The notes beneath the pieces were generated by a model. That model searched no databases. It was given only the letters and a program-made list of their open reading frames with translations, and had not been told where the DNA came from. Positions 12,064 to 62,915 of a stretch of DNA of 64,000 nucleotides are shown here, piece by piece; the stretch's first letter is position 1; every line of letters starts with the position of its first letter. A program made the position numbers and the translations under genes. Origin of the DNA: Verrucomicrobiales bacterium (GTDB taxonomy: Bacteria; Verrucomicrobiota; Verrucomicrobiia; Verrucomicrobiales; DEV007); assembly GCA_024638765.1 (NCBI GenBank), contig JAHEJT010000002.1:1-64000 (forward strand). Direction: 5' to 3'.

Positions 12064-13551
12064 TCACAAATTGCCGCCAAGCTCCTCCCGAAGCCGTTCC
12101 CGGTTCTCCTCGAACCACCGGTCGACTTCTTTACCTCCAAAGACCCGGCCCCCGACGTACCCGGCCACCTTCTGGAAACTTCGCGTTGCCTGTTGCAACA
12201 CCGCCAGGTTCGGATCCGTGAGAATACAATCCACCAAGTACTCGCAGGCCTCAAAGGTCCGGTGCATCCCCATCAGCTCGGCCGCCCGCGCCCGCGATTC
12301 CGGGGGCACCGCGCTGGACAAAAGCAAGTTCCCCAACTGTTCCACCGACAACTCCGTGTCGCTGGTCAAGGTGGGATCAATCAAATCCATCGGGATCCCG
12401 CGATAACGCATAGCCGCCGTCCGCACATACACGGATTCCACCCGGATAATCTCCGAATTAGCCGCCGTTTTCAGCATCAGCGAGGCCGATTCGTTGAACG
12501 CTTTGTCCAACTGGCTGTATGCAAAACGGCTGCCCGTGGATATGGCTTCGTCGGCATAACTCGAGAGACGCTGCCTCTTTTCGACCATTTCCAATCGCCG
12601 CTCCAACGACTCCAAACTCGATTCTTCTTCGCCCCCGGAATCACCGCCCTCGATGGGCTCCGCCGCTTTCGCCGGCTCTTCGCGCTCCCCCGCCGTGGCG
12701 GCATTCGCCCCGCTACCGGCGGATCCCGCGCTCCCCGAAGTTTCGACATTCTGCGTGATGATCGCGCCTGGCACTTCTTCTTTCGCTTCGCCCGCCTCGA
12801 CAGCCCGCCCCTCAATCTGCTCCGCCAATCGCGCCGAAGCCGCGCCCATCTCGGCGACCTGCCCTTCGATCGTGCGCACGGTGTCCATCAATTGCTCGTT
12901 TCGATAATAAAGATAACCGACGCCGGAGAGCAGGGCCGCAATCAAGATCCACAACCCGATTGGCAGACCCCTCGAACGCGTTGCGGCTTTGCCCTCCGCG
13001 GAGGTCTCGGCGCCCGAATCCCCGGATTCCGCCTGTCCAAGAATCGGCACCAGCTTGGGCCGCTCCCGTTCAGAATCTTCGTCCAGGCTCGCCGCTTCCT
13101 CCTCGAGCGCTTCCGCAAAATCTGCGTCCTCTTGCCCCCCTTCCGGCGCTCCCTCGAAATAATCCCCGCTCTTTTCCTCCGCAGCGAGGGCTTCTTCTTC
13201 CTCCCCCTCCTCCCAGACTTCGGAGAGACTCTCGCCCGGCGCAGCCAAAGACTCCTCCTCCTCCTCAAGCGATTCCCCCTCCAAACTGGGGCTCTCCTCC
13301 GCCACCTCGGCGCCCGCGTCCTCGGTGACCTCCTCCGGTTGCTCGACCACTTCGATCATCTCCTCGACTTCGCCCTCGACCACAGGCGCCTCCCGCGCCA
13401 CCGGCGCGTCCCCGGCGCCGGAATCGTCTACCTCCAGATCGAGACTCAGGTCGCTTTCGGGCTCCCCCAAGGCACCCGACTCGCCCGCGGAAGATTCCGC
13501 GGCCTCTTCGGGGCCCGTCTCTCCCGGGGATTTCGCGCTTCTTCTCATCGA
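12064..13551 (-). CDS. acidic single-pass membrane protein, function unknown
   Basis: I chose ATG 13551 (MRRSAKSPGETGPEEAAES), giving about 495 aa; a longer frame from 13611 adds only Arg-rich residues. Residues 1-180 are extremely acidic (long runs of Glu, Asp, Ser) and low-complexity, one membrane helix follows (LPIGLWILIAALLSGVGYLYY), then a coiled coil (MDTVRTIEGQVAEMGAASARL), a second acidic linker, and a C-terminal folded part of about 150 residues (SRFAYSQLDKAFNES onward) that looks HEAT-like. It has no recognised family. The deacetylase-like gene starts 31 bp downstream. Confidence 0.7.
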   Translation of the reverse strand, partial: SMRRSAKSPGETGPEEAAESSAGESGALGEPESDLSLDLEVDDSGAGDAPVAREAPVVEGEVEEMIEVVEQPEEVTEDAGAEVAEESPSLEGESLEEEEESLAAPGESLSEVWEEGEEEEALAAEEKSGDYFEGAPEGGQEDADFAEALEEEAASLDEDSERERPKLVPILGQAESGDSGAETSAEGKAATRSRGLPIGLWILIAALLSGVGYLYYRNEQLMDTVRTIEGQVAEMGAASARLAEQIEGRAVEAGEAKEEVPGAIITQNVETSGSAGSAGSGANAATAGEREEPAKAAEPIEGGDSGGEEESSLESLERRLEMVEKRQRLSSYADEAISTGSRFAYSQLDKAFNESASLMLKTAANSEIIRVESVYVRTAAMRYRGIPMDLIDPTLTSDTELSVEQLGNLLLSSAVPPESRARAAELMGMHRTFEACEYLVDCILTDPNLAVLQQATRSFQKVAGYVGGRVFGGKEVDRWFEENRERLREELGGNL

Positions 13552-25876: not shown

Positions 25877-26003
25877 GCATAGTGTGCGGTGGCCGGTGTT
25901 CAGACGTGGGGCTACACCGATTGACACCAAGGCTGATGATATGCCGGCCGGGACTGGCGGGAGACGGTAGAGAGCACAATGCAGGTTGCAGTCTGCTGAT
26001 TGC

Positions 26004-26031
26004 CGAACACTGAACACCGAACACCGAACAC
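26004..26031. repeat. 7-bp tandem repeat tract upstream of zwf
   Basis: Four 7-bp units, (C/T)GAACAC, run from 26004 to 26031 and end 9 bp before the zwf start codon. The tract occupies the place of the ribosome-binding region. It belongs to the set of degenerate heptanucleotide tracts found at several gene edges in this window. The stretch 25877-26003 before it holds no gene. Confidence 0.8.
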
Positions 26032-26040
26032 CCCTCCGCC

Positions 26041-28938: not shown

Positions 28939-29226
28939 TAGAATCAGGATTTCGCTCCGCTCAATATCCAGTCTGCCCTGCGCGTTAGCGCGCAATAAAA
29001 ACCGAAGGCACAATGCAGATCGCGACACTGCCATGGCGCGTTAGCGCATAATTAAAGGCGAAGCCTACTTGCAGAGCGTGCTAAATGCAGGATAAAGGAG
29101 CGAGGTATCTATCATGACTAGGATCAACAACCTGCCGTAGGCAGGATGATTTCTGATCCAAAAAGATCCTTTGCGGCCCTCTGCGCTTCTTCGCGTCTTT
29201 GCGTTGAGTCTCTCTCCATCCCGCAT
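28939..29226. other. opcA-smpB convergent spacer with small hairpins
   Basis: This convergent spacer has no gene. It holds two related short hairpins, TGCGCG-TTAG-CGCGCA at about 28978-28993 and a GCGC-GTTA-GCGC copy near 29037-29048, each followed by A-rich sequence and an AAGGCGAAGCC-like or CCGAAGGC motif. A CTTTGCGGCCCTCTGCGC...CTTCGCGTCTTTGCG phrase repeat follows near 29169-29203. No T-rich terminator tail is seen. Confidence 0.6.
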
Positions 29227-29258
29227 CCCGATACCCGATACCCGGCGGCGAAGCCGCC
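29227..29258. repeat. 3'-end element: triloop hairpin plus 7-bp units, abutting the smpB stop
   Basis: The hairpin GGCGGC (29244-29249), loop GAA, GCCGCC (29253-29258) ends at the base before the smpB stop codon. Two CCCGATA units (29227-29233, 29234-29240) lie on its other side. In smpB sense the order is stop, hairpin with TTC loop, then GGGTATCGGGTAT. Four similar elements occupy the same position at other minus-strand genes. Confidence 0.8.
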
Positions 29259-29717
29259 CTACTTCCCCTTATTAAACCGCGCCATCTCCCGCGCCGCTTC
29301 GCGCTCCGAGATCTTTTTCTTCAAATCCTGCCGCTTGTCGCGGGCCGCCTTGCCCCGGCCCAACCCTAACTCCACCTTGAGCCGGCGGTTCTTCCAGTAA
29401 ACGCGCAGGGCCACCGCCGCCAGTCCCTTCTCCGCAATCTGTGAGCTCAGCTTGTCGATCTCTTTGCGGTGAAGCAGCAACCGCCGCGGCCGCTTGGACT
29501 CGTGCTGCTCATGGCTGGCCTGCGCATAGGGCTGGATATCGCAGCCGTAAAGAAATACCTGGCCCCCTTCCACCCGCGCGAACGCATCCCCAATGTTGAT
29601 GTGTCCCGCGCGAACCGATTTCACTTCGGTCCCCCGCAACTCGATCCCGGCCTCAAACTTGCCCAGGATCTCGTAGTCGCGGAGCGCCTTCCGGTTCTTG
29701 GCAACCTCAGGCTTCAT
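29259..29717 (-). CDS. smpB: SsrA-binding protein SmpB
   Basis: The 152-aa protein binds tmRNA and delivers it to stalled ribosomes. It contains the family hallmarks: KALRDYEILGKFEAGIELRGTEVKSVR near the N-terminus, GDAFARVEGGQVFLYGCDIQPY, KRPRRLLLHRKEID, and the basic tail RDKRQDLKKKISEREAAREMARF that reaches the decoding centre. The length is normal. It lies 82 bp downstream of rpoZ on the same strand. No tmRNA gene is visible nearby. Confidence 0.97.
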   Translation of the reverse strand: MKPEVAKNRKALRDYEILGKFEAGIELRGTEVKSVRAGHINIGDAFARVEGGQVFLYGCDIQPYAQASHEQHESKRPRRLLLHRKEIDKLSSQIAEKGLAAVALRVYWKNRRLKVELGLGRGKAARDKRQDLKKKISEREAAREMARFNKGK

Positions 29718-32564: not shown

Positions 32565-32939
32565 TCATCGATCGGCGGCCTTACCCGGCAGAATCCCCCC
32601 CTTTGAGGCCAGCCGAATCCATTCTTCGCGCAATTCCTCGAATCCGGCTTTGCCCGCAGCGACTCTGGTGATCGTCACAATGTAATGTCCCGGCGATAAT
32701 TCGGACCCGATTTCCTGGATAACTCCCCGGATTTGCCGGCGCAACCGGATACGCCGCACCGCCTTCCCCACCCGTTTCGGAGTGATGATACCGAATCTAC
32801 AGCAAGTGAGGTCCGAGTCACGGAGAAAGGCGAGCACCAGGTATTTGCCTCGCAGAGATTCACCGTCGCGCCGCACCCGGAGGAACTCCCGCCGGTGACG
32901 CATCCTCGTGGAGCGCGGCATCTTCATGAGTGCTGCCAT
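32565..32939 (-). CDS. rnpA: ribonuclease P protein component
   Basis: The 124-aa basic protein partners the RNase P RNA in 5' maturation of tRNAs. The RNP-box region reads ITPKRVGKAVRRIRLRRQIR, with the preceding FLRVRRDGESLRGKYLVLAFL. Possible starts are ATG 32939, 32927 and 32921; I keep the first. It is 62 bp downstream of rpmH. No RNase P RNA gene was recognised in the window. Confidence 0.94.
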   Translation of the reverse strand: MAALMKMPRSTRMRHRREFLRVRRDGESLRGKYLVLAFLRDSDLTCCRFGIITPKRVGKAVRRIRLRRQIRGVIQEIGSELSPGHYIVTITRVAAGKAGFEELREEWIRLASKGGILPGKAADR

Positions 32940-40222: not shown

Positions 40223-40282
40223 GTCCCGGGTAGATGCACCAAGCGTCATCGGGAGTAAATCGTCTCTCGATCGCCTTCCTCC

Positions 40283-40336
40283 CGATAACTGGTCACCAAT
40301 AACGGATAACCCGGCGAAGCCGCAAGCCGCCGCCGC
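40283..40336. repeat. 3'-end element: triloop hairpin plus 7-bp units, abutting the pseudopilin stop
   Basis: The stem CGGC (40312-40315), loop GAA and GCCG (40319-40322) is followed by a GCC-rich stretch up to the pseudopilin stop codon at 40337-40339. On the other side lie ATAACTG, GTCACCA, ATAACGG and ATAACCC units. In the gene's sense the order is stop, hairpin, then GGTTATCCGTTATTGGTGACC. It resembles the elements at 29227, 44336, 56240 and 61297. Confidence 0.75.
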
Positions 40337-40999
40337 CTAAAAGAAGGAACACACGTCGTCGGAGCCCCTGTAATTGCCGTTCCCCTTGCGCCCCATCTCC
40401 TTGTCCTCACCGTAAGACAGAATCAAGATTCCTCCCAGATTCCTGAAGACACCCGCATCCGTAACTTCCATGTCCTCGTAATCGAACATCTCGTTTTCGG
40501 ACGCGTCAATCTCGTCGTTGTAATCGGTGTCCAGCAGGATCCGGAATTCGTTCCCCCAGATATCGAAATACCTGCCGTCTTCGGCAATCCCTCCCCGCGG
40601 GGATTCACCGGATCCCCGGGCCTCCTTCACGTTGGTGAGAAAGACGATTCGCTTTGGGTTGAGGCGATGCCCGCTGTTCCATCCCGCGTCTTCCGCCAGG
40701 AGCACGTACATTAAATCACCCGTGTTCGCGCTTCCCCCCTCGCCGACCATCACATCTCTACCCTGCATGTCCTCTTCAACCGGGTATCGGCCGTATTCAT
40801 TGTAATACTCCGCGATGGCGATGCGCAGTTGCTGAATCTCGTTCTTGGTGGCAGTCTTCCGCGCCGCCCGCAGGATCCCCGGTCCAGCCGCAAAGATTAC
40901 TCCCGCCAGGATCGCGACGATCAGCATGACAACCAGCAATTCCAAAAGGGTAAACGCGCGCGCATCTCTACGGGATCGCAGGGCTGAGGACATTTTCAT
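40337..40999 (-). CDS. type II secretion pseudopilin-like protein (GspG-like)
   Basis: The 220-aa product has the prepilin N-terminus ARAFTLLELLVVMLIVAILAGVIFAAG with Glu at +5, a long helix (ATKNEIQQLRIAIAEYYNEYGRYP) and a C-terminal globular part with calcium-site-like DTDYNDEIDASENEMFDYED and an FDIWGNEFRI motif. The Y-YPxxx and DxWGxxxxY/F pattern matches major pseudopilins. No gsp genes are adjacent, so it is an orphan; such genes are numerous in Verrucomicrobiota. The mature protein would be membrane-anchored by its first helix. Confidence 0.88.
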   Translation of the reverse strand: MKMSSALRSRRDARAFTLLELLVVMLIVAILAGVIFAAGPGILRAARKTATKNEIQQLRIAIAEYYNEYGRYPVEEDMQGRDVMVGEGGSANTGDLMYVLLAEDAGWNSGHRLNPKRIVFLTNVKEARGSGESPRGGIAEDGRYFDIWGNEFRILLDTDYNDEIDASENEMFDYEDMEVTDAGVFRNLGGILILSYGEDKEMGRKGNGNYRGSDDVCSFF

Positions 41000-41777: not shown

Positions 41778-41784
41778 CCTCAGA

Positions 41785-41973
41785 AGAGTGAAAAGTAAAA
41801 AGTAGGAAAGTAAAAGGTTCCGGAGCGGTAACTTTTCACTCAATGCAGGGCAAGCATCGGACGGAAAACAACCGGCACTTTGAGCGAAAATGAAGTCGGC
41901 CCGGAGGTATGGCCGCACCACATCGGGATTCTTTACTTTTTACTTTCCCACTTTTTACTTTTTACTCTATTTC
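41785..41973. repeat. pair of inverted 7-bp repeat tracts between divergent genes
   Basis: AAAGTA-type units fill 41785-41816 and TTTTACT-type units fill 41931-41973, the second being the reverse complement of the first in pattern. They flank a 114-bp centre and sit within 10 bp of the start codons of the VTT gene (41777) and the PNPOx gene (41976). They replace the normal ribosome-binding regions of both genes. Confidence 0.85.
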
Positions 41974-44315: not shown

Positions 44316-44335
44316 GTCGTTTAGAAGCTGCCCCC

Positions 44336-44378
44336 CTCACCACTCACCAATAACCCGGCGCGCAGCGCCGCCGCCCCC
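44336..44378. repeat. 3'-end element: triloop hairpin plus 7-bp units near the GNAT stop
   Basis: CGGCGC (44356-44361), loop GCA, GCGCCG (44365-44370) forms a perfect 6-bp stem, ending 8 bp before the GNAT stop codon at 44379-44381. CTCACCA, CTCACCA and ATAACCC units lie on the other side. In the gene's sense: stop, hairpin with TGC loop, then GGTTATTGGTGAGTGGTGAG. Confidence 0.8.
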
Positions 44379-44840
44379 TCACGGAGTCCAACGATACCGG
44401 CGCTTGAAACGGGATCCCCGGGCGTAATGAGAATCATCCCCAGGCACCGGCACCTCCTCCAGGAACTCCGCTCCCAGCTTTTCGATCGTCTTCACCGAAG
44501 CATAATTATCCGGATCAGAGGTGATAATCACCGAGTCATATACCGACCGGACAAAAGGCGCCAGCGCCCGGCAGGCGTGGCGTGCGAACCCCTGCCCCCG
44601 GAACTCTTCCACCACTGCGTACCCGATATGACCCGCGCAAAGCCGCACGTGACGGGTGTCCCCCACCCGAAAACTGATGTGGCCGGCTTCGTTCCCCTCG
44701 CGATCCTCAATCCGAAAATAATACGCCGGCACATGCCCCGCTTCGGAATCCCCGGGAATCAACCGCTCAAAACACAGCGATACGGGCCCCGCCGCAAGCA
44801 GCGGGGGTGGTATCGGACAGGTTGTCGCCGCGCTACTCAT
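44379..44840 (-). CDS. GNAT-family N-acetyltransferase
   Basis: The 153-aa cytoplasmic protein has the GNAT acetyl-CoA motif FRGQGFARHA following the beta-strand HIGYAVVEE, and the usual later VIITSDPDNYASVKTIEKLGAEFLEE helix-strand pair. The closest groups acetylate protein N-termini or antibiotics (RimJ-like). The start codon ATG 44838-44840 lies in the first unit of the GTCTCAT/GTCTCAC repeat tract, and a hairpin-heptamer element abuts the stop, so both ends of the gene are repeat-derived. Confidence 0.85.
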   Translation of the reverse strand: MSSAATTCPIPPPLLAAGPVSLCFERLIPGDSEAGHVPAYYFRIEDREGNEAGHISFRVGDTRHVRLCAGHIGYAVVEEFRGQGFARHACRALAPFVRSVYDSVIITSDPDNYASVKTIEKLGAEFLEEVPVPGDDSHYARGSRFKRRYRWTP

Positions 44841-44904
44841 GTCTCATGTCTCACGTCTCAAGTCTCACGTCTCAAGTCTCACGTCTCACGTCTCACGTCT
44901 CACG
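44841..44904. repeat. 7-bp tandem repeat tract filling the TerC-GNAT spacer
   Basis: Nine consecutive units of GTCTCAC, with GTCTCAT and GTCTCAA variants, run from 44841 to 44903. The tract contains the TGA stop of TerC (44900-44902) and reaches the start codon of the GNAT gene (44838-44840), so the whole spacer is repeat DNA. Confidence 0.92.
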
Positions 44905-45685
44905 AAGCGCCCGCGGGATGCCCCTCGGCATGCGCTTTGATCGCCAGGATCTTCTTCCGGTACCGGCTTTGGACGATGTCCGAAAACACCAGCACGCCGA
45001 TCACGAAATAAAACGTCATCTTGGTCATGGGCACAATCTCCTTGCCGAAGAGCTTCAGGTGCGCCAGGTGGCCGCCTTCCGTCAACAGCATGATCCCCAC
45101 CACGAACAAAATAAACAGCCCCATCACCTCGTACATCCGGTTCTTCTCCAGGAATGACGAGACGTGATCCGCCAGCCAGATCATCAATACCCCGCCGATC
45201 ATGATCGCCGTGGCCATCACCCAGAACACATCGCTCAGCGCCATCGCGCTCAGGATGGAATCAAAGGAAAACACCAGGTTCATTAGCACGATCCAGAAGA
45301 TGACTTTCCCGGCGGAACCCGGTTTCTTCTTTTCGTCATCAAAATGTTCGACCCCCATCATGTGAAAGATTTCCTTGGTGGCCGTGTATATGATGAGAAC
45401 CCCGCCCAGCAGAACGATGATACAGTGTACATTAAACGTGCCCTCTACGATGCTGCCCAGGTGAATCCCGAAAATCGGGTCCTGAAAATACTGAATCACC
45501 GACATCAGGGTGAACAGCAACACGATGCGCAGCAGGATCGCGATCCCGATCCCCAAGCGTCGCACCATCGCCCGCTTTTCCTCGGGCGCCCGCTTTGACT
45601 CCAGGGAGATGTAGAGCAGGTTGTCGAATCCCAGCACCGCCTGCAATATAATGAGCAGGCCCAGCGTAATCAGGTTATCTATCAT
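44900..45685 (-). CDS. TerC-family membrane protein
   Basis: The 261-aa protein has about seven helices and the TerC signatures: FDNLLYISLESKRAPEEKRA with the Asp-Asn in the first helix, and MNLVFSFDSILSAMALSD with the second acidic site. Members are linked to manganese export and metal loading of exoproteins or to tellurite resistance. The last codons (GAS and TGA) run into a heptanucleotide tract. I checked the 143 bp upstream for a yybP-ykoY manganese riboswitch, which controls many TerC genes, and did not find a convincing one. Confidence 0.93.
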   Translation of the reverse strand: MIDNLITLGLLIILQAVLGFDNLLYISLESKRAPEEKRAMVRRLGIGIAILLRIVLLFTLMSVIQYFQDPIFGIHLGSIVEGTFNVHCIIVLLGGVLIIYTATKEIFHMMGVEHFDDEKKKPGSAGKVIFWIVLMNLVFSFDSILSAMALSDVFWVMATAIMIGGVLMIWLADHVSSFLEKNRMYEVMGLFILFVVGIMLLTEGGHLAHLKLFGKEIVPMTKMTFYFVIGVLVFSDIVQSRYRKKILAIKAHAEGHPAGAS

Positions 45686-56239: not shown

Positions 56240-56276
56240 AAACCCAATAACTAGTAACGCGCGCGCAGCGCGCACC
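56240..56276. repeat. 3'-end element: triloop hairpin plus 7-bp units, abutting the parB stop
   Basis: GCGCGC (56259-56264), loop GCA, GCGCGC (56268-56273) forms a perfect 6-bp stem 3 bp before the parB stop codon at 56277-56279. AATAACT and AGTAACG units lie on the other side. In the gene's sense: stop, hairpin with TGC loop, then GTTACTAGTTATTGGG. Confidence 0.8.
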
Positions 56277-57188
56277 CTAATCCCTCTTCACCCCCATCAC
56301 GTCGAGAACCCGGTCCAGATCGTCGTTCCCGTAATACAGGATCTCGATCCTACCCTTCTTCTCCCCATGATGGAGCCTTACCTTGGTGGAAAAATGCGCC
56401 TGGAGCTTCTCTTCCAGGTGTTTGACCGCGGAAGAAACCTGCCCGCCCTGCGTCTTGGAGCGCGCAATCTTCCTCGAGGGCATCAGCTGATCTGAGACCA
56501 GCTTTTCCGTGGCGCGCACGGTAAGATTCTTCTTCACCACTCCCTGCGCAATCAGTCTCTGTGACTCCTGATCCTTGATCCCAAGGATAGCTTTGGCGTG
56601 ACCCACGGAAAGTAATTGCCCGGAAACCAGATCCTGGACTTCAGAGTGGAGATCGAGCAACCGCATCGAGTTTGCAATCGTCGCCCGGTTCTTGCCGACG
56701 CGCTGGGCAATATCTTCCTGGCGCATCTGAAAATCGCGCGCCAGTCGCACGTAAGCTTCAGCTTCTTCGATCGGATTGAGATCTTCGCGCTGCAGATTTT
56801 CGATGAGCGCGATCTCCAGGACCTCGCGGTCGGAGGCCACCCGGATGATCACCGGCACTTCGTCGAGATCGAGCTTTTTGGCTGCGCGCCAGCGCCGTTC
56901 CCCCGCAATAAGTTCCAGCTTTGTGTCGACCTCGCGCACGATCAGGGGCTGGATAACCCCGTGCTCCCGGATGGAATCGACAAGCTCTTCCAATTGCTCG
57001 TCGTTGAAGTGTTTCCGCGGTTGTAGCGGGCTGGGTGTCACCACGGAAAGGTGGACATGCTTGACCCGCTCACCGCTCGCAGGATCGGATGCGGCAAGCA
57101 CGTGGGAAGCACCGGCTGCGGGGGGTGCGGCCGCGGGGTTCCCCTTGATCAGCGCATCTAATCCTTTGCCCAGAGCTTGCTTTGCCAT
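56277..57188 (-). CDS. parB: chromosome-partitioning protein ParB
   Basis: From ATG 57188 (MAKQALGKGLDALIKGNPAA) the 303-aa protein has the ParB pattern: the PSPLQPRKHFNDEQLEELVDSI N-terminal segment, the CTPase/clamp GERRWRAAKKL box (ELIAGERRWRAAK), the ENLQREDLNPIEEAEAY stretch, a helix-turn-helix (QEDIAQRVGKNRATIANSMRLL) and a C-terminal dimer domain. It would load at parS sites near the origin. parA is not adjacent here, and no parS-like GTTTCACGTGAAAC sequence was seen. A frame to 57230 adds residues with no support. Confidence 0.95.
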   Translation of the reverse strand: MAKQALGKGLDALIKGNPAAAPPAAGASHVLAASDPASGERVKHVHLSVVTPSPLQPRKHFNDEQLEELVDSIREHGVIQPLIVREVDTKLELIAGERRWRAAKKLDLDEVPVIIRVASDREVLEIALIENLQREDLNPIEEAEAYVRLARDFQMRQEDIAQRVGKNRATIANSMRLLDLHSEVQDLVSGQLLSVGHAKAILGIKDQESQRLIAQGVVKKNLTVRATEKLVSDQLMPSRKIARSKTQGGQVSSAVKHLEEKLQAHFSTKVRLHHGEKKGRIEILYYGNDDLDRVLDVMGVKRD

Positions 57189-61296: not shown

Positions 61297-61331
61297 CAAC
61301 GATCAACCAATAACGCAGGCGAAGCCCGCTC
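61297..61331. repeat. 3'-end element: triloop hairpin plus 7-bp units, abutting the gpmI stop
   Basis: GC-A-GGC (61315-61320), loop GAA and GCC-C-GC (61324-61329) forms a stem with one mismatch, 2 bp before the gpmI stop codon at 61332-61334. ATCAACC/AATAACG-type units lie on the other side. In the gene's sense: stop, hairpin with TTC loop, then GTTATTGGTTGATCG. Confidence 0.72.
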
Positions 61332-62915
61332 TCACCCCACTGCCGCCCCTTTCCGCACCAGCAGGGAACTCCCGGCCATCGCTTCCGGCTTCTCCAGCCC
61401 GAGCATGTCCAGCAAGGTGGGCGCGATGTCAGCCAGAACTCCGTCCTGCAATCCGACCTCCGCCGCATCCGCCCCCACGTAAAACAAATGCACCGGAAAA
61501 GTCGTGTGCGCCGTGTGCGGCGATCCGTCGGGATTGCGCATGTACTCGCAATTTCCGTGATCCGCGGTGATCAATAGACTTCCTCCCAGGCGCATCGTCT
61601 CATCCACCACCGCTTTCAATCCTGCGTCCACCGTTTCCACCGCCACGATCGCCGCTTTGACGTCTCCGGTGTGTCCCACCATGTCCGGATTCGCGTAATT
61701 CAGAATCACCAGATCATACTTCCGCAACCTCTCCACCACCTTCTGCGTGACTTCGGGCGCACTCATCTCGGGCTGCAGATCGTAGGTCGCCACCTTTGGT
61801 GAGGGCACGATTTCGCGGTCTTCCCCCTCAAAAGGCTCCTCCAAACCCCCGTTGAAGAAATAAGTTACGTGGGGATATTTTTCGGTTTCGGCTATCCGCA
61901 GCTGCTTGAGCCCCGCCCGGGCTACCACTTCCCCGAGGACATCACTCATCGTCTCCGGAGGAAATACCACCGGACAATCATAGGTCTCATCGTACTCCGT
62001 CAACGTCACGTAATGCACCCTCGGCCAACCCTCGCGGTCAAAACCGTCAAATCCTTCATCAAGAAAAGCATTCGACAACTGCCGCGCGCGGTCGGCGCGA
62101 AAATTGAAAACGATCACCACGTCGTCGTCTTCGATGCGCTGGCCCCCGGCCGGCGAATCAGACCCCACCTCGCAACTGCCGGCTTCCCGGAAAAGGATCG
62201 GGAGAAGAAACTCGTCCGTCTTGTCTTCCCGGTAACGTTCACGGACCGCTTCCGAAGGCAGCACGTCCATACATTCACCCTTGCCGTGCACGATCGCATC
62301 CCACGCCAGCTTGGTGCGATCCCATCGCTTGTCGCGGTCCATGGCATAATACCGCCCCACCACCGTGATGATTCTCGCGCCGAATGGCGCCAACCTGTCC
62401 TCGCACTCGGAAAGATATCCCGCGCCTCCGGTCGGCGATGTATCCCGCCCGTCGGTAATGGCATGCACAAAGAGATCCCGGCAGCCGGCTTCGTAAGCCG
62501 CGCCCGCCAACGCCGCGAGCTGATCCTGGTGGCTGTGCACCCCGCCGTCGGAAAGTAACCCGATGAAATGCAGGCGCCGCCCCTGGCGCGCCCGGGAAAA
62601 CGCATCGCGAAGCACCGCGTTATCCGAAAGCTTGCCCTCCTCGATCGTCTTGTTGATGCGGGTAAGATCCTGGTAAACGATGCGGCCCGCACCCAGGTTC
62701 ATGTGACCCACCTCGGAGTTTCCCATCTGTCCCTCGGGCAACCCTACCTCCAGCCCGCTCGTCGCCACGTGACTGTACGGATATTCTGCGAAAAGTTCTT
62801 CATGAAAAGGAGTCTTCGCCTGAAGCACGGCGTTGCCGTCCTTCTCCTTCGTGCTCTCACCCCCGGGGTTGTCGCCCCAGCCGTCGCGGATTACTAATAC
62901 AACAGGTTTTGCCAT
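61332..62915 (-). CDS. gpmI: 2,3-bisphosphoglycerate-independent phosphoglycerate mutase
   Basis: The 527-aa enzyme from ATG 62915 (MAKPVVLVIRDGWGDN) interconverts 3- and 2-phosphoglycerate using two Mn ions. Hallmarks are VLVIRDGWGDNPGG, the phospho-Ser in GQMGNSEVGHMNLGAGR, AITDGRDTSP, FNFRADRARQLS, and YANPDMVGHTGD with the later ITADHGNCE. The length is standard. A longer frame to 62930 is possible. It is followed at its stop by a hairpin-heptamer element. Confidence 0.96.
   Translation of the reverse strand: MAKPVVLVIRDGWGDNPGGESTKEKDGNAVLQAKTPFHEELFAEYPYSHVATSGLEVGLPEGQMGNSEVGHMNLGAGRIVYQDLTRINKTIEEGKLSDNAVLRDAFSRARQGRRLHFIGLLSDGGVHSHQDQLAALAGAAYEAGCRDLFVHAITDGRDTSPTGGAGYLSECEDRLAPFGARIITVVGRYYAMDRDKRWDRTKLAWDAIVHGKGECMDVLPSEAVRERYREDKTDEFLLPILFREAGSCEVGSDSPAGGQRIEDDDVVIVFNFRADRARQLSNAFLDEGFDGFDREGWPRVHYVTLTEYDETYDCPVVFPPETMSDVLGEVVARAGLKQLRIAETEKYPHVTYFFNGGLEEPFEGEDREIVPSPKVATYDLQPEMSAPEVTQKVVERLRKYDLVILNYANPDMVGHTGDVKAAIVAVETVDAGLKAVVDETMRLGGSLLITADHGNCEYMRNPDGSPHTAHTTFPVHLFYVGADAAEVGLQDGVLADIAPTLLDMLGLEKPEAMAGSSLLVRKGAAVG

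Follow-up and report, generated by a model that had tools for sequence, protein, structure and literature searches.

Heptanucleotide tandem repeats in intergenic DNA are known from cyanobacteria as short tandemly repeated repetitive (STRR) sequences, and the arrays analyzed here resemble them in being intergenic tandem heptamers. Earlier work took up heptamers at gene borders unit by unit and species by species, with explanations specific to the unit, such as quadruplexes or a TAACTGA-binding regulator. Rehm et al. (2015, PMC4692102) describe the G-rich heptamers GGGAATC in Xanthomonas and GGGGA(C/T)T in Nostoc, for which quadruplexes are suggested. According to the descriptions given there, these repeats have 7-bp units, are mostly intergenic and are spread over the genome, as is the case here. 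They lie at most 50 bp from genes, in sense orientation after stops and antisense before starts, which is the polarity found here, and convergent inverted pairs likewise occur in Xanthomonas. In contrast, one G4-forming unit was studied per species, whereas 67 units coexist here, nearly all of them unable to form G4. Positions in Xanthomonas are mostly conserved between two species, whereas those described here are lineage-specific. The stop hairpin present here receives no mention in the descriptions of the Xanthomonas and Nostoc repeats in that report.

MacGregor (2015, PMC4679880) describes a second system, direct repeats of TAACTGA in Beggiatoaceae and in some Cyanobacteria and Bacteroidetes. 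On the opposite strand, this unit reads TCAGTTA and so corresponds to the TCAGTTA (GTTATCA) family found here. As described there, the repeats mostly lie a short way before starts, oriented as here, occasionally occur reversed after a stop, and are matched in some relatives by shorter repeat-free spacers, again as here. Related heptamers are rarely repeated in the Beggiatoaceae genome, however, whereas many units coexist here, and the start side prevails there, whereas stop and start sides are about equally occupied here. A hairpin composite like that of the present genome is not described with the TAACTGA repeats in that account. REP/BIME sequences with RAYT transposases (e.g. PMC2817692) are short extragenic palindromes near gene ends, as here. 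RAYT-like Y1_Tnp genes do occur in this genome but, unlike in REP/RAYT systems, the arrays do not flank them, and the composites have neither a fixed palindrome sequence nor the common GTAG/GGAG head of the REP type. The layout thus matches that of the Xanthomonas, Nostoc and Beggiatoaceae repeats; what is new is the number of units in one genome, the abutment of a hairpin and the evidence for insertion from ortholog comparison.

Composites in the window and hairpins at stop codons

The window, a stretch of 64,000 nucleotides, lies on contig C184 of an uncultured Verrucomicrobiota genome (5.43 Mb, 309 contigs). It contains five composites, all on the minus strand, in which the stop codon is followed 0-14 bp on by a GC hairpin whose loop is TTC or TGC and, 0-2 bp after the hairpin, by 7-bp repeats. 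The original prediction had placed such elements, at 29227, 40283, 44336, 56240 and 61297, directly after five stops at distances of 0 to 14 bp. All five were found: the hairpin lies 0 bp from the stop in smpB, 14 bp in a pseudopilin gene, 8 bp in a GNAT gene, 3 bp in parB and 2 bp in gpmI (gene names as in the original prediction).

The smpB hairpin, GGCGGC-TTC-GCCGCC (29244-29258, minus strand), directly follows the TAG stop (29259-29261) and is abutted by the array GGGTATC GGGTATC GGGATGC GGGATGG (29216-29243, minus strand). The pseudopilin hairpin, CGGC-TTC-GCCG (40312-40322, minus strand), lies 14 bp after the TAG stop (40337-40339) and precedes the degenerate heptamers GGTTATCCGTTATTGGTGACCAGTTATCGG (40282-40311, minus strand). 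Eight bp after the TGA stop of the GNAT gene (44379-44381) lies CGGCGC-TGC-GCGCCG (44356-44370, minus strand), followed by GGTTATT GGTGAGT GGTGAGG (44335-44355, minus strand). The parB hairpin has a core of GCGCGC around TGC (56261-56273, minus strand), its stem extending to 6-7 bp, 3 bp after the TAG stop (56277-56279), with the two degenerate heptamers GTTACTA GTTATTG beyond (56244-56258, minus strand). The gpmI hairpin, GCGGGC-TTC-GCCTGC with one G-U pair (61315-61329, minus strand), stands 2 bp after the TGA stop (61332-61334) and is followed by the degenerate heptamers GTTATTG GTTGATC GTTG (61297-61314, minus strand). Only the smpB array passes the threshold of the genome scan, the other four being short or degenerate. 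The gpmI of the window has its nearest matches in Verrucomicrobiota and shares 71% identity with Roseibacillus and an Akkermansiaceae MAG.

An Rfam scan of the window gives only two tRNAs above the gathering score; the composites match no family, and a known RNA family was rejected as an explanation. Further arrays in the window have other settings. A TGAGACG-type array without a hairpin (44835-44906, minus strand) contains the stop codon (44900-44902) of a gene that ends within it, so some arrays overlap the stop itself. A GTGTTCG array (26003-26034, minus strand) lies 6 bp upstream of a plus-strand start, its G-rich strand pointing outward from the gene. Between two divergent genes, AAAAAGT units form an inverted pair of arrays, with a left arm (41783-41804, plus strand) whose G-rich strand points outward and a right arm (41950-41970, minus strand). 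Another short-period intergenic repeat family, CGCAAAGACGCGAAGAAGCGCAGAG / CCGCAGAGATCGCAGAGGACGCAGA, occurs in the window at 29165-29208, just below 69481 in C184 and just below 5141 in contig C157.

For the genome-wide tests, a sample of 1.06 Mb was taken as stretches of the genome. Long contigs and contigs with pattern matches were favored, and array densities are therefore biased upward and to be read as upper estimates; the tests of polarity, position and pairing should escape this sampling bias. A simple codon-usage caller yielded 776 genes in the sample, with start positions that are consequently approximate. Since runs of N adjoin or interrupt heptamer arrays (C157 at 32610-32842; contig C92 near 29077), arrays may break the assembly and be undercounted.

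Hairpins were scored when a stem of at least 5 bp lay at most 8 bp from the stop, and arrays when located at 8-30 bp. In the sample, a hairpin was present at 15 of the 40 stops with an array versus 47 of the 507 without (Fisher p = 5.6e-6), an excess over chance. The corresponding count is two of 33 at starts with an array, and shuffles give 1.2 of 40 (maximum 5). When a stem of at least 4 bp is accepted, there are 18 composites with 18 different stems, in agreement with the predicted conservation of pairing between differing stems; in this set, the median distance from the hairpin end to the array start is -1 bp. The predicted lack of a T-tail also holds: no T-run follows the hairpin at any of the five window composites, and no T-rich tail was found at the 15 array-linked hairpins of the sampled genome. 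Stop hairpins also occur at approximately 8% of the stops in two GC-rich relatives, so that the hairpin on its own is ordinary; here, it is stop-specific and tied to arrays. The GC palindrome after the stop is most likely a predicted RNA stem-loop that would form or protect the mRNA 3' end, a role that fits hairpins that follow stops, not starts, and keep their pairing. If the stop hairpins set mRNA 3' ends, this system may show how operons are split. Other short palindromes straight after stops occur genome-wide, namely CGGCGGCAGGATGCCGCCG, GACAGGCATCCTGCCTGTC and GTAGC-headed hairpins (e.g. C157 53065-53130 and 66119-66168), and are possibly REP-like families.

Heptamer arrays and spacer organization

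At high stringency (strict), 77 intergenic arrays of period 7 were found in the 1.06 Mb sample versus 11 in coding sequence, and any other period, the harmonic 14 excepted, gave at most nine strict intergenic arrays. Moderate stringency yields a set of 127 intergenic arrays in the same sample, with 67 distinct units such as GGAAGAT, GTTATCA, GTTATTA, GAGTAGT, GTGTTCA and TTAGCAT. No unit dominates the genome, the most common one accounting for 13 of the 127 arrays. The single GTTATTG-type repeat of the original prediction was thus not recovered as such; the GTTAT-type family, with 183 two-unit matches genome-wide, is one family among many. Formation of G-quadruplexes was rejected as a common property, since four G3 tracts occur in only six of the 127 arrays; four G2 tracts occur in 21 of them.

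Arrays lie at most 25 bp from a stop in 49 cases and at most 25 bp from a start in 42. This proximity persists in spacers longer than 400 bp: of the 33 arrays there, 20 have a gene edge no more than 25 bp away, versus an expected 3.2 (maximum 10 in 1000 random placements). Within 25 bp of the gene, the strand read outward is the G-rich one in a ratio of 41:6 at stops and 38:3 at starts. The elements had been predicted to sit exactly at gene ends and possibly to target stop codons. The former stands for the hairpin, which is specific to stops, but not for the arrays, which are about as common at starts; the latter is contradicted by their near-equal occurrence on both sides with mirrored polarity. 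Within arrays, unit identity falls from 6.28/7 at a separation of 1 to 3.89/7 at a separation of 13, neighbors being most alike. Because of this decay with separation, growth of the arrays by local 7-bp duplication with errors is supported.

Adjacent arrays of opposite polarity in one spacer face each other ('><') in 26 cases and point apart ('<>') in one. The units of facing partners match at 5.38/7 versus 4.05 in shuffles (sd 0.20, maximum 4.73 in 2000). Viewed across the spacer, 15 cases have arrays on both sides where 7.1 are expected, with a unit similarity of 5.8 versus 3.88 under the null. Across the gene, no coupling was found (six both-sided versus 5.9 expected, similarity 4.17), and array partners across the gene, as in an mRNA circularization idea, were rejected. 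Coupling across the spacer and none across the gene identify the spacer as the unit of organization. For many arrays, all five window composites included, no partner arm was detected. Eight of 11 facing-pair spacers fold into long stems markedly better than shuffles (z -2.7 to -5.7).

Comparison with relatives

Spacers were compared at two clear junctions and a weaker third. The plsY-gpsA spacer measures 130 bp here and consists of an array, a core and an inverted array, versus -8 to 97 bp in 29 relatives. The batA-batB spacer, with arrays, measures 197 bp versus -4 to 132 bp in 25 relatives, and in many of these the two genes share 4 bp; the array-free junction just upstream of batA in the same operon is unchanged, at -8 bp here and a median of -1 bp in 14 relatives. 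The weaker case is purF-purD, with a hairpin and arrays, which spans 383 bp here versus 6-68 bp in six relatives and 195 and 723 bp in two more. A similar hairpin directly after the purF stop is absent in all eight of these relatives. The composite after gpmI is likewise present in no relative compared, and an ancient gene-specific element at gpmI was rejected. Given these absences after gpmI and purF, the hairpin may have arrived along with the array, perhaps not being independent of the insertion.

The core of the plsY-gpsA spacer is single-copy genome-wide; where the other tested cores have matches elsewhere, these are mainly due to arrays or to a separate MITE-like repeat. A multi-copy core was rejected: the motif TGAAAATGGA, just inside the array in three GTTA-type insertions, is common to these three inserts only and there is no other homology. 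Since plsY-gpsA and batA-batB nearly touch in relatives and are separated here by 130 and 197 bp with arrays, array-flanked spacers were inserted in this lineage, although the inserts do not all derive from one sequence. Cores that are not copies of one element leave a classical transposon family unsupported. The original prediction of a mobile repeat therefore survives in part: array-core-array insertions are lineage-specific, but the proposed targeting of stop codons was not found.

The GGAAGAT array has 40 matches in this genome, one match in one of 58 other genomes of the family and single matches in three of 288 other genomes of the phylum. Five relatives from the family together contain three strict period-7 arrays in 400 kb. 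Judged by these genome comparisons, the boom in arrays is lineage-specific. Sparse heptamer arrays of other units (GATTCAA, CACTCCG, ATCTGCT) occur in other Verrucomicrobiota, with 13 in 1.37 Mb, and period 7 is still ahead of the other tested periods in Roseibacillus ishigakijimensis (locus L081) and eight other loci.

Origin of the array-flanked spacers

We lean, if only slightly, towards reading the composite as a stop hairpin plus one arm of an inserted heptamer-flanked spacer. The DNA inserted between neighboring genes would read 5'-(G-rich heptamers)n - core - (reverse-complement heptamers)n-3', and its insertion is shown at the two operon junctions plsY-gpsA and batA-batB. Each arm would have grown by error-prone local tandem duplication of 7 bp, as supported by the decay in unit identity. 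The arms would be inverted copies of each other, through terminal inverted repeats or hairpin-templated copying, and would therefore share one unit. On this view they would be the two ends of one event, which may have left terminal repeats, made snap-back copies or added sequence at 3' ends. The insert would land in a spacer of near-zero length and its arms would stop at the first selected base, be it the stop codon, the 3' hairpin or the start region; such landing would produce both the apparent targeting of gene ends and a G-rich strand that runs out of the gene.

Pure replication slippage, in which heptamer tracts in spacers expand neutrally because a step of 7 bp suits the polymerase and no insertion takes place, would account for the decay of identity with distance, as predicted for local duplication, and is compatible with the diversity of units; for heptamers, Rehm et al. 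(2015, PMC4692102) cite a hypothesis of polymerase contact. We nevertheless judge slippage rather unlikely, as it predicts neither the outward polarity and the hugging of gene edges in long spacers, nor the matched inverted partners across the spacer, nor the presence of non-repetitive cores at places where relatives have almost no spacer. A non-autonomous MITE-like element, with the arrays as terminal inverted repeats moved by some transposase that recognizes G-rich sites spaced by 7 bp, would explain the inverted matched ends, their fixed polarity, the presence or absence of an insertion at orthologous sites where the genes of relatives touch (plsY-gpsA and batA-batB, with purF-purD weaker) and the motif TGAAAATGGA common to three GTTA-type insertions. 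Such an element is also rather doubtful given interiors that are not homologous, with unrelated cores that are single-copy where tested genome-wide. Target-site duplications were looked for by eye and nothing obvious was seen, and RAYT genes are not associated with arrays: the genome has 18 Y1_Tnp hits with an array at one of the 18 flanks, so that both the link to a REP-type transposase raised in the original prediction and a RAYT/REP origin were dropped.

A selected regulatory element would consist of protein- or structure-binding mRNA sites, i.e. sites for a translation regulator at starts and a 3'-end element at stops, or of G-quadruplexes. TAACTGA repeats near start codons have been proposed as post-transcriptional sites (PMC4679880) and G4 repeats have been proposed near genes (PMC4692102), and the strong long stems of eight of the 11 tested facing pairs would suit such a function. 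It is quite unlikely, however, in view of the 67 units with few G3 or G2 tracts, the lack of conservation of arrays at orthologous places and a mirrored polarity that gives opposite RNA sequences at start and stop ends. Transcription termination, either Rho-dependent or intrinsic without a tail, would be consistent with stop-specific hairpins, and the GNAT hairpin is a nominal terminator-like match. Besides the missing T-tails, the sense strand after stops is C-poor, which is the opposite of a rut site, 43 of the 127 units are without a YC dimer on the C-rich strand, and arrays stand before starts too; we consider a terminator very unlikely and rejected a Rho rut site because of the wrong strand after stops and the one third of units without a YC dimer. 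Highly improbable, too, is that the arrays are scars of a DNA break whose two 3' ends each received the same 7-nt unit and were then joined around filler DNA. The addition would be templated or self-primed and telomerase-like in effect, and since both 3' strands would carry the same G-rich unit, it would yield the '><' polarity and coupling across the spacer instead of the gene; spacers would then be made de novo between genes. Ku was not detected in this genome (93% complete) and was found in one of 40 family genomes, which leaves Ku-dependent end joining unsupported as a driver and means that the break-scar process would differ from ordinary NHEJ.

The many units of this genome, with a common 7-bp step, a common polarity and a mirrored layout, make a unit-specific function unlikely as the general cause of gene-border heptamers and suggest instead that one shared process creates spacers between genes in bacteria.

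The MITE-like repeat mentioned above is a separate element of approximately 150 bp whose ends are inverted and read TTGTCATCCCGAGCGGAGTCGAGGGATC; examples lie at 12558 and 12687 in contig C92 (locus L065). Its ends occur 46 times in the first 746 kb, all intergenic and often nested in heptamer-flanked spacers.
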